IMG/VR virus record: IMGVR_UViG_3300046516_000810
Location: 1 to 59,166 of that record
DNA from: a virus
DNA: 59,166 nucleotides
Strand: one strand, 5' to 3'
The notes under the pieces are model-generated. The model was given only the letters and a program-made list of their open reading frames with translations. It searched no databases and was not told where the DNA came from. Of this stretch, positions 39,435 through 45,314 are shown one piece after another (positions within the stretch are counted from its first letter, which is position 1; every line of letters begins with the position of its first letter). The position numbers and the translations under genes are program-made.

Positions 39435-40106
39435 TCACACCGCCAGCATCTTGCCCGATGCGGGCATGAAAGCGGGATGCACGATACCGTTCTCGGCAAT
39501 CAACTCGGCAAACCGAGTCGGATCGCCATAGGCGCGCTGCGCCATTCGCAGCGCTGGCATCACCGTCGCATAGTCGTAGCTGATGAGGCGCGGCAGCTCG
39601 CGGGCGCGCGTGGCCAAATGCTGAACAACATTTCCATGCAAGCGGATCAGCGCCATATAGGTTGCGCTGTCGAGATCATCTGAGGCCCGTTCCTCGGTTG
39701 CGCTGAACGCCTCATTTATTGCCACCGCCACCGCTTCAACCTGGTCGCGCGATTTGTAGGTTGTCGTTGCTATTATGCGGGCATTCGCGGCCAGCGTTAT
39801 CCGCACGATTGCCTGGACCGTCAAAACCGCTGGCAGGCTGAACGGCGCTTCCGTCAGCGCGGCCTTGCGTACCCGGTCCATCGTCACCAATGTCGCTTGG
39901 CAGAAGCGCGCCAAATCGACGCAAACGGAGAACGCATAGGCAAAGGTTGGCATGTTGATCATGTTCTGATCTGCCACCATCATTCCAACCGCACGACGCA
40001 GCGATGTCCCCACGGTCCCAGACAAGCTGACGGCAGCCGACAGCACTACCGGGCCAATCCGCCGCACGATGCCGAGAACCTCATTTGCTTCGTCGGAGTT
40101 CATCAT
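39435..40106 (-). CDS. gpN-like protein, C-terminal half, 223 aa
   Basis: ATG 40106 overlaps the preceding gene's TGA (ATGATGA). The helical sequence (GIVRRIGPVVLSAAVSLSGTVGTSLRRAVGMMVAD..., SATYMALIRLHGNVVQHLATRARELP) ends with AYGDPTRFAELIAENGIVHPAFMPASG, the C-terminal type found in Mu gpN (DNA circularisation/tail protein). In Mu the two halves are one polypeptide; here they are split. Confidence 0.6.
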   Translation of the reverse strand: MMNSDEANEVLGIVRRIGPVVLSAAVSLSGTVGTSLRRAVGMMVADQNMINMPTFAYAFSVCVDLARFCQATLVTMDRVRKAALTEAPFSLPAVLTVQAIVRITLAANARIIATTTYKSRDQVEAVAVAINEAFSATEERASDDLDSATYMALIRLHGNVVQHLATRARELPRLISYDYATVMPALRMAQRAYGDPTRFAELIAENGIVHPAFMPASGKMLAV

Positions 40107-40669
40107 TCCTCCAAATTCGGGACTACGTCTGATACGCCTGCACTGTTGTAGACGGCAGCATACGGCTGCACTTCGGTTGCCGTTGTCGGTGTCGGCGTGC
40201 CCGCTACCGTGTTCTCGACCGTTGTAGCCGACTCGTTTATTTGAGCCGGTGTCGCGACCGTTGATCTGAAGGTCGGGTCGCCGTACTCGACAAAGGCCAT
40301 TTCGACTGCGCAGTAGCCGCCCTTTTCGCGACTCGTCGTGACGCTGTAGCCCTGCACCATCACCATTACATCTTGCAGATTGTACGGCAGCGGCAAACTC
40401 AGCAAACCAGGGCCATCGTCTTCTAAGCATCCGATCAGAATGTCCATGTCATCGAGATAGTTCGGTCCAATCAAATAACCCTGCACCGTGATCGCAAACG
40501 CGGTGCGGCCCATGTCCTCGGCGTAGGGTAAATTTCTCTTTGGATATTGGTGGAGCGCCACGCGCCGGCCGCCCGCGCGCGCATCGGTATCGACATGGAA
40601 AAACGCACCGCGGAACCACGCCGTTCGGAACGCATTGCGCCACGGGTTCTTGATGTCGGTGATGATCAT
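40103..40669 (-). CDS. gpN-like protein, N-terminal half, 188 aa
   Basis: MIITDIKNPWRNAFRTAWFRGAFFHVDTDARAGGRRVALHQYPKRNLPYAEDMGR is the DNA circularisation protein N-terminal domain (W...L..A.FRG..F.V.......GRR...H.YP.R..P..EDMGR). ATG 40669 overlaps the tape-measure stop. In Mu gpN acts in tail and baseplate assembly. Confidence 0.75.
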   Translation of the reverse strand: MIITDIKNPWRNAFRTAWFRGAFFHVDTDARAGGRRVALHQYPKRNLPYAEDMGRTAFAITVQGYLIGPNYLDDMDILIGCLEDDGPGLLSLPLPYNLQDVMVMVQGYSVTTSREKGGYCAVEMAFVEYGDPTFRSTVATPAQINESATTVENTVAGTPTPTTATEVQPYAAVYNSAGVSDVVPNLEE

Positions 40670-43600
40670 GTCGGCCCGAAACCTATTCCCGGTCTGTCGG
40701 TCAACTGCATCTGCTTGTAGCTTTGGATCGTCGTGTTCTGCCACAGCCTGCCGTGGGAACTGGCATTCGTTTTCGCCGCCGTGCCGTTCGAATTGACGGT
40801 CACGTTCACGCTGCCCTGGACATTCGACGCGCCGGCCGCACCCGTGTTCACCGCGCCGTCAACGCGCGCGGTCGGAGCCTCCTGATCGGGACCAAGCAAC
40901 ATATGCCTGATTTGATATTGCCTTGGTCCGCTCCCTATCGTGATCGGCCGGTTTGAAACAACATCATGGCCATACTGGCCGATGCCGTGCTGCGCGCCCT
41001 TCGGGTTGAACTGATTTGCTCCAATCCCCTGCCAAGCTGTGATGTTTCCTTTGTCGTCGTAGACCGGGACCGCCGCCGTGACGTGCGATCCTGCCTGCCC
41101 CGTTTTCCCGGTGTTTCTTACCGCGATATTCGCCATACCGGGTCCGCCTGCATAACCTCCTTCGCCCCATCCACGCCAGTTAGAAGCCGTTTCAAAACCT
41201 TGCGGCGGCTCGCCGCCATGCCGCTTGACCATCGCCGCCATGAACTGCCCGCACGTCGCCACGCTCATGTTGATGCCGTGCTTGGCCATGTAGTCGTGAA
41301 TGTTCTGCGGAGAGCCACCCGCCAGCGTCATCGCCGTCACATCGGCGGCGAAGCCTCCCATTTCCTCCGGTGTGCCGGGGTTGGTCGCGGTCGTTTTCGC
41401 CGCCTGGAGCGCTGCCTGCATCCTGTGGGTGAAGCCCTTGCCGAAGTCCTTGTGTATCGCGGTACGCTGGTCTGCTGCGTCGTCCTTATCCGGCGCCAGA
41501 GTTTTCCGCCATTCGGCCATGCGCTCTGCGGTCTGCGGCTGCGAGCCGCCGGGCAATCCAACCCAATGCCCGTGCAACATCTGAGAAGCCGCATCGTAGT
41601 CGCCGCGCTTGATTGCTTCGGCGGCTTTCGGGAAAAACTTTTGAATGTAAGCCCAATTTGCAGCCTCTTGCTGGTCGTAGGTTCCGGTTCGCGGATCAGG
41701 CAAGCCAGCGCGCTTGGCCTGCGCGGCATCACGGGCGTTCTGCCGAAAGAACCCCGTGTTGCCGCCTTCGCTTTTTGCCGCCACGTTCGGGTCGTTGCTT
41801 GTTTCGAGGAACGAAAGCCCACGCATGAACTTGTGGGCATCGCCACCGCCAGCAGCACCCGCCGGCACGCTGCTCGGCTTGTCTACCTCGCCGGTCGCCT
41901 TCTGGAGCAAACGTATCTCGAAGCCGCTCAATGATCGGCGGCGCCGGCCGCCCGTGTCATCGACCATCGCCGTGTTGGTCTTCGGGTCGTAGCTGCCCGG
42001 CTCGATCTCCATGACGTGACCGCCGGTCGAGCCGATCTTCACGTTGGTCTTGCTTGCGACGATGCTGCCGAAGCCCCGCCCCGGATCATTGATGTTCGCC
42101 CCTTCGCCATGCTCGCCAATGCTGCGCCAGTTCGAAGCGACCGAGTATCCCTTCGGCACCTGATAACCGGACCCACCGCTAAAAGCGCGCGCGAGGTCAC
42201 CGCACCATGCGCTGTCTACGCGATAGCCGCGCGAGGACATCAGTTGCCGCATGCCTGCGGTGTTGCCGGACGCCGCGAGCTGCTTGAGGCCGGCCACCGT
42301 CTGCGGATCGACAGGCTTGCCGCTGGTGTCGAGAACAGGGCCACCACCGCCGCCGGGCGTTCCACCACCGCCACCGCCGCCACCACCACCGCCGCCGCCA
42401 CCACCACCGCCGCCGCCACCACCGCCGGGTGCTCCGCCGCCGGGACCACCACCACCGCCGCCGAGGAACCCGCTGCCCTGGCGATCGGCATCGATGTAGT
42501 CCTTGAAATCCATCAACGCCTGGAAGGTGCCTTCCTTGACGGTGTGGACCTCGTCGGCCTTGTCGGCGCTGCCACCGCCGAGCTTGTTGAGGGGGATGAC
42601 CGCCTCGGGGCCGCCTTCGCCAACCATCGCCAGCGTTGCGCCGCTGACGATGCCGCCGCGCGCCATGTGCGGAATTTGGCGTGCCCTCGATCCGGGCACT
42701 CCCGGTATCCCCGAGATGTTTGGCTGCGGAACCCGCACCAGCGGTGGAGGTATCGGGTGCGTGGCAGGGTTGGTTGAATATGAACTGTAGTCACCTTCAC
42801 CAAATAAAGCAGTCGCCGCAGCACCTTTGTAGTCGCCCTTTGCCCACTTATCCTTCGCGGCCTGCAACGTCTTATCCATCTCGTTTATTTGCTTGATGTT
42901 CGATTCAATCGCTCCGCTTATCGCATTCATTACCCCTGTGGCCGCCGGAAACAGCGGCTTCGAGCCGACCAGCACGAGCTTGTCCCAGGCCGTGCCCATC
43001 TCGACCAGCGAGTCCTTGTACTTCTGCGCCGCCGCCTGCTGTTCAGGCGTTATGTCCTCCATCTTTGCCCGCGATTTATTGTACTGATCCAGCGACAGCG
43101 CAGCGGCTTCCGCGCCAAGGCCGATCGATTGGAAATACATTCGCGACGTGAAGCCGGACGGATCAGCCTTATCCATCCGGTCTTTTTGTTGGAACGCGAT
43201 CTTGAGCTTTTCGCCCTGCGTCGTTGCGGCCTTTAGGGCGTTGATCAGCGGGCCGCCACCGCGCGAGATGATGTCATCAAACCCCGCGCCCATGTTGTAC
43301 TTAAACTCGTTCATGGTGCGGCTGAAGCTCTTGAGGCTTCCCAGCATCGCCTCGGGGGCTTGTCCCGCCTTCTCGGCTGTCTCCATCCAAGCGCGCAGAT
43401 CGCGCTCGGACATGCCGATTTCCTTGCTCGCGTACTTGAGCTGTACGACCTGATTCGCCACGCGATTGAGCGATAGCACCAGCCCCGCGGCTGCACCGGC
43501 GGCGCCGGCCGCGCCCAGGCCGAACGATCCGAAAGCCGACGATGTCGCGGTGATGGCGCCGCCGACCTGCTGCAGCGACCCGAATAGCGCCTGGAACTCC

Positions 43601-43734
43601 TTGCTCGCCGCCTTTGCGCCGGTGCCAGCCTTCGTCTGCATGAGGCCGATCTCGCGGCCCATGTTGCGGATGTTCGCCAGCGCTTGGTCTGAGACGAAGG
43701 TTGCGCGAAGTCTCAGGACATCTTCATTGGCCAT
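40666..43734 (-). CDS. Tape measure protein with Gly-rich linker and hydrolase-like domains, 1022 aa
   Basis: The N-terminal part (ANIRNMGREIGLMQTKAGTGAK..., ALKSFSRTMNEFKYN) is helical tape-measure sequence with a hydrophobic segment. A poly-Gly/Pro run spans residues about 415-465. A Cys-domain follows (SAWCGDLARAFSGGSG..., SNWRSIGEHGEG, GGHVMEIE), then an SLT-like part (GLSFLETSNDPNVAAKSEG, TGFFRQN), then a second Cys-domain (ATCGQFMAAMVKRHGG, SNWRGWGEGG, AGSHVTAAV). It sets tail length and may cut peptidoglycan during entry. Confidence 0.8.
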   Translation of the reverse strand: MANEDVLRLRATFVSDQALANIRNMGREIGLMQTKAGTGAKAASKEFQALFGSLQQVGGAITATSSAFGSFGLGAAGAAGAAAGLVLSLNRVANQVVQLKYASKEIGMSERDLRAWMETAEKAGQAPEAMLGSLKSFSRTMNEFKYNMGAGFDDIISRGGGPLINALKAATTQGEKLKIAFQQKDRMDKADPSGFTSRMYFQSIGLGAEAAALSLDQYNKSRAKMEDITPEQQAAAQKYKDSLVEMGTAWDKLVLVGSKPLFPAATGVMNAISGAIESNIKQINEMDKTLQAAKDKWAKGDYKGAAATALFGEGDYSSYSTNPATHPIPPPLVRVPQPNISGIPGVPGSRARQIPHMARGGIVSGATLAMVGEGGPEAVIPLNKLGGGSADKADEVHTVKEGTFQALMDFKDYIDADRQGSGFLGGGGGGPGGGAPGGGGGGGGGGGGGGGGGGGGGGTPGGGGGPVLDTSGKPVDPQTVAGLKQLAASGNTAGMRQLMSSRGYRVDSAWCGDLARAFSGGSGYQVPKGYSVASNWRSIGEHGEGANINDPGRGFGSIVASKTNVKIGSTGGHVMEIEPGSYDPKTNTAMVDDTGGRRRRSLSGFEIRLLQKATGEVDKPSSVPAGAAGGGDAHKFMRGLSFLETSNDPNVAAKSEGGNTGFFRQNARDAAQAKRAGLPDPRTGTYDQQEAANWAYIQKFFPKAAEAIKRGDYDAASQMLHGHWVGLPGGSQPQTAERMAEWRKTLAPDKDDAADQRTAIHKDFGKGFTHRMQAALQAAKTTATNPGTPEEMGGFAADVTAMTLAGGSPQNIHDYMAKHGINMSVATCGQFMAAMVKRHGGEPPQGFETASNWRGWGEGGYAGGPGMANIAVRNTGKTGQAGSHVTAAVPVYDDKGNITAWQGIGANQFNPKGAQHGIGQYGHDVVSNRPITIGSGPRQYQIRHMLLGPDQEAPTARVDGAVNTGAAGASNVQGSVNVTVNSNGTAAKTNASSHGRLWQNTTIQSYKQMQLTDRPGIGFGPT

Positions 43735-43746
43735 GTCGTTCCGCCC

Positions 43747-44237
43747 TTAATCCGGTCGTCGCTGCTTTTCTGCGGTCGCCAACAGCATGTCGGTCCAGTG
43801 CATATGCTGATTGACCTCGTCCAGCGTCATCGCCAAGAACTCGCCCGGAGGCCGCGAGTAGAATTTCGCCAAGCGGTAGCAGTTTAAGACTGCGTCCCCT
43901 GGACGCCCGGCGGGAAAAAACGCATCAACGCATAGGCACAGGTTGACCAGTCCTCCGCGTCCATTGACTTGATCGTTGATGGCGGAACCGACGCGAGCAG
44001 GGACATCATGTCGCCCATCACGGGCGGGTTGACGGTGATTTCGCCGCTCTGCCAGTTGATGTTGATCGGGTAGCCCGTGGTCATCGCCATTATGTCGCCG
44101 CCTGTCGGCCGGCGAAACTTCAATTGCTTGATCGTCTCGCCGTGCGCTTGCACCGGCGTTATCAGATCAACAACAACTTCCTTCAACCGCGGTGGCGCCG
44201 CGGCCTCTGGCTCGGTCTTCTTAACCGCCTCTTGCAT
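43747..44237 (-). CDS. Tail assembly chaperone, -1 frameshift product, 163 aa
   Basis: This is the extended form of the 117-aa chaperone gene. At 43920-43914 the minus strand reads T-TTT-TTC, a legal X-XXY-YYZ slippery heptamer in the zero frame. A -1 slip opens 55 further codons (PAGRPGDAVLNCYRLAKFYS..., MTLDEVNQHMHWTDMLLATA) and stops at 43747. Mu gp41/42 and lambda gpG/gpT use the same layout. The two products coat the tape measure. Confidence 0.75.
43884..44237 (-). CDS. Tail assembly chaperone (Mu gp41-like), 117 aa
   Basis: ATG 44237 follows AAAAGGAGCAACC. RLKEVVVDLITPVQAHGETIKQLKFRRPTGGDIMAM and DAEDWSTCAYALMRFFPPG are typical of the Phage_TAC_7 (E/41/14) family. The ribosome makes this short form most of the time and the frameshift form at lower level. 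Confidence 0.8.
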   Translation of the reverse strand: MQEAVKKTEPEAAAPPRLKEVVVDLITPVQAHGETIKQLKFRRPTGGDIMAMTTGYPININWQSGEITVNPPVMGDMMSLLASVPPSTIKSMDAEDWSTCAYALMRFFPPGVQGTQS

Positions 44238-44248
44238 GGTTGCTCCTT

Positions 44249-44617
44249 TTACGGCGCCATCTCGATGCAGCTCACGCCTTCGAACCTGATCCGAAATTGT
44301 CCGTCGTGCGTGTTGATTTCGAGCGGCCCCTTGGTCCACGCCTGACTGAGCACGTAGGTTCTGCCGTTGATCAGCTCGGCGGTCACCGTCGCGTTGGTGA
44401 TGGCTTCGAGGAAGTCCAGCGACACCTCGGGCAGCGTTGACACGTCGCCCTCGATGTAGGGCACACGCGGCAGCTCCTGATAGCCGTGGACGTAGTCCTG
44501 GCCCGCGATGCCGGTGCGCTCGACCGCCGACGCGGACACCGTCAGGTTGCCCTTGAGCGGGTATTGATTGCTATCGACCTTCAGATACGCGGTTCCAGCG
44601 AACGGGCCTTGGGGCAT
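44249..44617 (-). CDS. Tail tube protein (Mu gpM-like), 122 aa
   Basis: MPQGPFAGTAYLKVDSNQYPLKGNLTVSASAVERTGIAGQDYVHGYQELPRVPYIEGDVST is the Phage_tail_tube pattern (GxAy...g...plkGnltvs...v.Re...G.D...Gy.E.p..p.Ieg). CAGGAGAAACACC precedes ATG 44617. It polymerises inside the sheath. Confidence 0.85.
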   Translation of the reverse strand: MPQGPFAGTAYLKVDSNQYPLKGNLTVSASAVERTGIAGQDYVHGYQELPRVPYIEGDVSTLPEVSLDFLEAITNATVTAELINGRTYVLSQAWTKGPLEINTHDGQFRIRFEGVSCIEMAP

Positions 44618-44649
44618 GGTGTTTCTCCTGTTTTTAGGCGGCGTTGAAC

Positions 44650-45279
44650 TCACGCCCCGATGCTGTGGCGAACCATCGCGACGGCATCGGGAAGCGTCAT
44701 TTTCTGAAAGCACCTGATTGTTGACGCGGGGCAGGCGTTCACGACGCTGATGCGGTGCTCGTTGAAGTAGGGCGCATAGACCGCGAAGTGCTCGGCCCAC
44801 TCATCCCACTTCTCACTCTGCTGCTCGCATCCGCCGTTGTAGTCGAAGCCCAGCAGCACGATTGCCCGTGCCTGCTTGTGGATGCAGACCTGCAGCGCCC
44901 CAAAGCCGCTGGTGCCGCCGCCATAGATTTCACTTGGGTCGTCCGACAGGCCGCGACCGTCCATGCGTTTCAGTAGCGTGATGTTCTTCGCGGGCGGTGG
45001 CCCTGCCTGGTCGAGCTGTTCCTCGGGCACGGCCCAATAGACGCGCGTGCGTGTCTCCGCGAGCTTTTCGCGCCATTCCGTGTAGCGCTTCACGTCGAGG
45101 CCGAAGACCGCGTCCGCCCACGGAATGCCGAAGATTTTTCCCTTCACCGCCAGCACATGCGCGCCGCGCAATTGCTCATAGTCGAAACCGATCAGCGACG
45201 GGCCGCCGCCGATGACGACCACCGGCTTGTCGCTCCAGAATGGTTTGTTCACCTTCCCGTACAAAATTCCGTCTCCCAT
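44650..45279 (-). CDS. DUF115/MptE-like protein inserted in the tail operon, 209 aa
   Basis: PVVVIGGGPSLIGFDYEQLRGAHVLAVKG and ADAVFGLDVKRYTEWRE, then YGGGTSGFGALQVCIHKQARAIVLLGFDYNGG, match the DUF115/MptE-like group (GGGPSL, D...F....R....). Related proteins act on pterins or sialic-acid/flagellin-type glycans. It lies between sheath and tube genes, which are normally adjacent. ATG 45279 comes just after the terminator T-run, without a clear ribosome site. Confidence 0.65.
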   Translation of the reverse strand: MGDGILYGKVNKPFWSDKPVVVIGGGPSLIGFDYEQLRGAHVLAVKGKIFGIPWADAVFGLDVKRYTEWREKLAETRTRVYWAVPEEQLDQAGPPPAKNITLLKRMDGRGLSDDPSEIYGGGTSGFGALQVCIHKQARAIVLLGFDYNGGCEQQSEKWDEWAEHFAVYAPYFNEHRISVVNACPASTIRCFQKMTLPDAVAMVRHSIGA

Positions 45280-45283
45280 GATG

Positions 45284-45314
45284 AAAACGGCGCGCACGGC
45301 CTGTATGCGCGCCG
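45284..45314 (-). terminator. Hairpin downstream of the sheath gene
   Basis: On the minus strand CGGCGCGCA (45314-45306) pairs with TGCGCGCCG (45296-45288), a perfect nine-base stem with a nine-base loop, followed by TTTT. It separates the sheath gene from the inserted DUF115-like gene and could reduce transcription of the genes beyond. Confidence 0.6.

Follow-up and report, generated by a model that had tools for sequence, protein, structure and literature searches.

Frameshifting in the genes of phage tail assembly chaperones is long established, going back to lambda and P2. In lambda, where the mechanism has been tested, the tape measure is coated by the short form, while the rare extended form has the additional property of binding the tube protein (PMC5009743). 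In P2, the E/E+E′ gene undergoes a –1 shift at TTTTTTG (T_TTT_TTG), reported without a downstream RNA structure (PMC3091744), and the extensions of P2 and P2-like phages lack a ribosome binding site of their own and overlap the start of the next gene (PMC3091744, PMC3931495). In the Mu-like Pseudomonas phage PaMx73, of the D3112 group, a T_TTT_TTC site has been predicted for ORFs 35/36 (PMC4378225). Mu has been called exceptional among such phages (PMC4378225); its gp41 is extended by a –2 shift (PMC5009743), without such a slippery heptamer. The locus described here represents, as the sequence comparisons indicate, a well-supported additional instance of this known phenomenon. It is not a new kind, because P2 uses TTTTTTG and PaMx73 is predicted to use the same heptamer.

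The window, i.e. the whole stretch of 59,166 nucleotides of viral DNA that was analyzed, carries on its minus strand a late operon whose head genes are lambda-like (gpA terminase, portal and capsid E). Its tail genes encode a contractile tail of the Mu type, with sheath, tube, chaperone, tape measure, DNA circularisation protein and a gp44-like hub. The features relevant to the frameshift are as follows.

44252–44623, minus strand: tail tube protein, the preceding gene (PF10618 Tail_tube, E 7.9e-34)
43884–44237, minus strand: zero-frame tail assembly chaperone (TAC), 117 aa and stop, with the putative role of lambda gpG / P2 E
43914–43920, minus strand: slippery heptamer T_TTT_TTC, in phase, nine codons upstream of the zero-frame stop
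43867–43912, minus strand: downstream RNA structure, a probable frameshift stimulator, with the consensus hairpin 8 nt after the heptamer
43884–43886, minus strand: zero-frame stop TAA, in the hairpin's apical loop
43747–43914, minus strand: –1 frame extension, 55 codons and stop, corresponding to T / E′ in the predicted fusion
40669–43734, minus strand: tape measure protein, the next gene (phrog_2013 and other tape-measure/lytic tail families)

The zero-frame product belongs to the Pfam family PF10109 Phage_TAC_7 of E, gp41 and gp14 chaperones (E 1.8e-10; 41.1 bits, with a cut-off of 25), and also matches the PHROGs tail protein family phrog_166 (E 2.5e-12). Its gene lies between those of the tube (PF10618) and the tape measure, the position of lambda G/GT-type frameshifted chaperones. 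An AlphaFold model of the zero-frame part, built on an alignment of the window and contig rows only, shows a beta hairpin and helices (pLDDT 85.9). The top viral match of this model in a Foldseek search of BFVD is a 'Tape measure chaperone' from Burkholderia phage Mica (E 3.5e-5), and the best Z of the N-terminal domain in a PDB fold search is 2.8.

Re-reading the sequence confirmed the original prediction exactly as to the heptamer, T-TTT-TTC in the correct phase at 43920–43914 of the minus strand. Positions 43925–43906 read ATGCG TTTTTTC CCGCCGGG, with the codon context CGT TTT TTC CCG at the slip, and relative to the ATG at 44237 the heptamer is in phase 2, i.e. X_XXY_YYZ, the phase of tandem slippage. 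This is the single occurrence of TTTTTTC on the minus strand. Six in-phase slippery heptamers of eight common types are found across the 23 late genes, and the one at 43920–43914 is alone in falling within the final 20 codons of a gene. Shine-Dalgarno stimulators of frameshifting are spaced at 10–14 nt; since the GGAGGA of this gene is ~30 nt 5′ of the heptamer, and thus too distant, we do not claim such a stimulator.

Conservation of the heptamer in relatives was one of the checks proposed with the original prediction, and it turned out in its favor. A total of 38 loci came from scanning viral contigs and bacterial genomes, and 25 non-redundant sequences, including the window, were retained; L018 was excluded because its –1 tail ends abruptly, probably through a contig error. 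The slip-site finder, whose patterns were T6[C/T/G] or CCCTTTC only, found a site in 34/34 scanned sequences. All 25 non-redundant sequences carry an in-phase slippery heptamer (TTTTTTC in 21, TTTTTTT in three and CCCTTTC in one), counts that are not independent because the relatives share common ancestry. The 24 further sequences have the same two-frame layout as the window. The zero-frame stop follows the slip at a distance of three to nine codons and the residues around the heptamer vary, while the bases of the heptamer are kept, including in distant members with different flanks (L041, L043, L047 and L049). Six amino acids (G, R, V, A, H and P) are represented at the codon preceding the heptamer, yet this codon ends in T in 24 of 25 sequences; in these genes GGT is used for only 22 of the 236 glycines and CGT for 19 of the 194 arginines. 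The P-site codon is TTT throughout the core set (19/19).

Several of these loci also bear on the provenance of the phage. One (L050) sits in a prophage of Bradyrhizobium sp. BRP22 and therefore indicates Bradyrhizobium-like hosts; the window is probably from a soil phage of such bacteria. Four IMG/VR contigs from other samples (L002–L005) encode a chaperone identical to that of the window, and the same phage population thus seems to recur. A chaperone relative in Paraburkholderia phage IPK (L053, an UNVERIFIED record, 1501–2012) has TTC TTC and no heptamer, and its –1 ORF opens just three codons before the stop; possibly, this phage has another way of expressing the extension, or the record contains an error.

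A –1 slip would replace the nine-codon end of the 117-aa protein with the 55 codons PAGRPGDAVLNCYRLAKFYSRPPGEFLAMTLDEVNQHMHWTDMLLATAEKQRRPD, whose stop ends at 43747, just before the tape measure ATG at 43734, in agreement with the original prediction. The predicted fusion protein is 163 aa long. The –1 frame remains open for 46 codons past the zero-frame stop, which is not rare, having a chance of ~24% at this base composition. We therefore rejected its length as evidence, and the case rests on conservation. Past the zero-frame stop, the variability at the three codon positions of the –1 frame is 0.25/0.20/0.46, and the dN/dS of the extension is ~0.18–0.25 (median pairwise value past the zero-frame stop 0.18; zero-frame body 0.21). 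These substitution patterns indicate that the extension is under purifying selection. Conservation runs across the junction, and the protein is conserved directly from the slip site, with the motif PAGRxGDAxLNCYRLAKFY, while the +1/–2 frame shows no conservation and its extension in the relatives is erratic, at 0 to 88 codons. AlphaFold predicts the –1 extension to be a compact three-helix domain (pLDDT 90). A PDB fold search with this C-terminal domain gave low Z only (3.8 or less), its fold search of BFVD gave no match below E 0.001, and no credible relative among solved structures emerged from a profile search; weak or absent fold and structure matches were given no evidential weight. The suggestion that the 55 codons form a plausible protein is nevertheless borne out by their conservation in relatives, a dN/dS of ~0.2 and the three-helix prediction.

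A conserved RNA structure follows the slip site. In close relatives a hairpin is located 8 nt 3′ of the heptamer and holds the zero-frame stop in its apical loop. The copy in the window is a branched variant, with a mismatch at 24:47 relative to the consensus, and has a z of –2.92 with dinucleotide shuffles; with mononucleotide shuffles of a 48-nt stretch, z is below –2 in 19 of 25 sequences and –1.82 in the window. Across 20 sequences, 85.9% of the cells of the hairpin are paired, compared with 22–43% when one side is slid by 1–3 bases. Two pairs covary, 31:39 (G-C 8, A-U 7) and 19:51 (G-C 5, A-U 4, C-G 3), both where variation need not break the proteins. In a tree-controlled simulation of independent evolution, the observed Watson–Crick pairing was reached in 0 of 2000 runs at 19:51 and in 25 of 2000 at 31:39. 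Because both pairs were picked after inspection of the alignment, this covariation lends moderate support to the hairpin. On the close set, RNAalifold recovered only part of the hairpin, with a small covariation term (–0.15); folding the sequences singly and counting pairs directly gave the fuller hairpin. Although their sequences differ, the distant L041 and L047 also show a stable stem at the same place.

A clearly stable downstream structure was absent in four of the five described phages tested, and the hairpin is therefore not needed in general. Judging from the alignments, the conserved hairpin is the new element here, and it may be a local refinement of a known kind. It is a concrete candidate stimulator. 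A stronger proposal, which we regard as speculative and rather unlikely, is that, in this alphaproteobacterial group of phages, frameshifting requires the hairpin and may be tuned by it, the unfolding of the hairpin being coupled to termination at the stop codon. If true, this hairpin-coupled shift would be an unusual stimulator for tail chaperones, P2 having been reported without a downstream structure.

Two frames in one gene could have other origins. A sequencing or assembly indel that split one real gene would be expected to give a similar layout in a single genome, but the four identical contigs from other samples and the 24 non-redundant relatives with the same two-frame layout refute it, leaving a negligible probability. 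It is extremely unlikely that the –1 ORF constitutes a small gene with a separate start, for instance one where ribosomes that have terminated at the zero-frame stop re-initiate at TTG 43872 or ATG 43830. In the window, the –1 frame contains no ATG, GTG or TTG between the previous –1 stop (it is open from 44166) and the slip, and such codons are likewise absent upstream of the slip in ten other sequences. Start codons do occur downstream (TTG 43872, TTG 43836, ATG 43830, 43803 and 43788), and L041 has an ATG four codons past the slip; however, those of the window fall inside or after the conserved motif, and the conserved protein begins at the slip site, upstream of any usable start. In the 22 sequences in which the CYRLA motif stands at codon 11, the first downstream start is at codon 14 or later in 19, and its place is not conserved. 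A separate gene would also give no reason for the conservation of the heptamer. The earlier statement that no independent start exists in this frame thus holds for the region upstream of the slip and for conserved starts, but has to be qualified for the TTG and ATG codons downstream. As in lambda G/GT-type frameshifted chaperones, the extension is conserved as a protein but has no start of its own.

Slippage of the RNA polymerase on the run of six to seven T, producing mRNAs with an extra U that are read normally, would predict the same proteins without ribosomal slipping. Such slippage is possible on T-runs and can be stimulated by nascent hairpins (PMC5009743), and four relatives (L020, L032, L043 and L047) have runs of seven T. 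However, the run in the window has six T, and the runs in the productive cases cited are longer (Thermus dnaX, 9 T; tssM, 11 A; PMC5009743, PMC4256274). In the T5C5 case a single base is lost, which would give the wrong frame here, and a hairpin is required on the 5′ side (PMC5009743), whereas the hairpin observed is 3′ of the site. Moreover, L048 has C_CCT_TTC, which is slippery for tRNAs and is not a homopolymer. We consider transcriptional slippage very unlikely.

Programmed ribosomal slippage is accordingly the reading that we favor: PF10109 membership, gene position, the in-phase heptamer, the selected extension and the lack of a conserved independent start together support it. From these sequence data and the analogy with lambda, we are highly confident that a programmed –1 slip on T_TTT_TTC would yield both the 117-aa chaperone and a rare 163-aa fusion from one gene. 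The original prediction of such a frameshift survived both attempts at refutation, by a separate start and by an unconserved heptamer. The majority of ribosomes would stay in the zero frame and produce the 117-aa chaperone. A minority, which we infer to be a few per cent, would slip by –1 on U_UUU_UUC with tRNA-Phe in the P and A sites, aided by the hairpin ~8 nt downstream, and produce the fusion. Frameshifting of 6–7% has been measured for two TAC-cluster genes elsewhere (PMC3711429). On the lambda model, coating of the tape measure protein would fall to the N-terminal part shared by the two forms, and recruitment of tail-tube subunits to the three-helix domain at the C-terminus of the rare one; both forms would depart before the tail is completed. 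Ordinary gene callers would annotate the 117-aa protein alone, missing the 55-residue domain thought to pass tube subunits to the tape measure; the –1 extension corrects the gene model.

The comparison with described systems refines the parallels first drawn, which were the layouts of Mu gp41/42 and lambda gpG/gpT. The lambda model of a short form and a rare –1 extended form (PMC5009743) is retained as the working model, although lambda is a flexible-tailed phage and the likeness is one of arrangement. Mu shares with the window the gene order of sheath, tube, chaperone, extension, tape measure, DNA circularisation and baseplate hub. However, Mu gp42 (Mup42) is the tape measure and not the extension, and Mu is the wrong model for the direction because it shifts by –2; the locus is not of the Mu gp41 type, its conserved extension being in the –1 frame. 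Closer analogues are P2 E/E+E′ and the predicted site of PaMx73. P2, the P2-like phages KS5, KS14 and KL3, and Smp131 (T7G) shift by –1 on a T6 run in the chaperone of a contractile tail, as is predicted for the window. The window differs from P2 in having TTTTTTC and a conserved hairpin, instead of TTTTTTG with no reported downstream structure. PaMx73 has a siphophage tail and a site known by prediction only, and its likeness lies in the heptamer.

The phages SfV and EPP-1 (both of the SfV group), DVM-2008 and BgVeeders33 encode a zero-frame protein 28–38% identical to that of the window (tblastn), with T_TTT_TTC in phase in the same gene; PG1 has TTTTTTG. The –1 extensions of these five phages are homologous to that of the window (hhalign probability 96.8). 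The records of the former four annotate the short protein alone, and mostly no clear downstream structure is present. From the heptamer and the homologous extensions in such distant described phages, we conclude that the T_TTT_TTC feature is, on this comparative evidence, old and widespread in Mu-tailed phages. It would span them from enterobacteria to Bradyrhizobium, with Mu itself as the exception.

The tail module has further features of note. A 215-aa ORF between sheath and tube (44653–45297, minus strand) matches phrog_4603, named alpha-2,3-sialyltransferase (E 8e-17); an enzyme-like gene within a tail module is unusual, and it occupies the same place in many relatives but is absent there from SfV. 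The tape measure gene (40669–43734) encodes a long poly-Gly tract and two repeats resembling NlpC/CHAP-type Cys-Gly motifs, and the PHROGs names for it include lytic tail protein and hub/tail lysozyme. Finally, the Mu N-like DNA circularisation / baseplate hub gene (39438–40744, minus strand) consists of two ORFs meeting at GGAGG-AATGATGA near 40106; both match phrog_184 in different parts, as either two coupled genes or one broken gene would.
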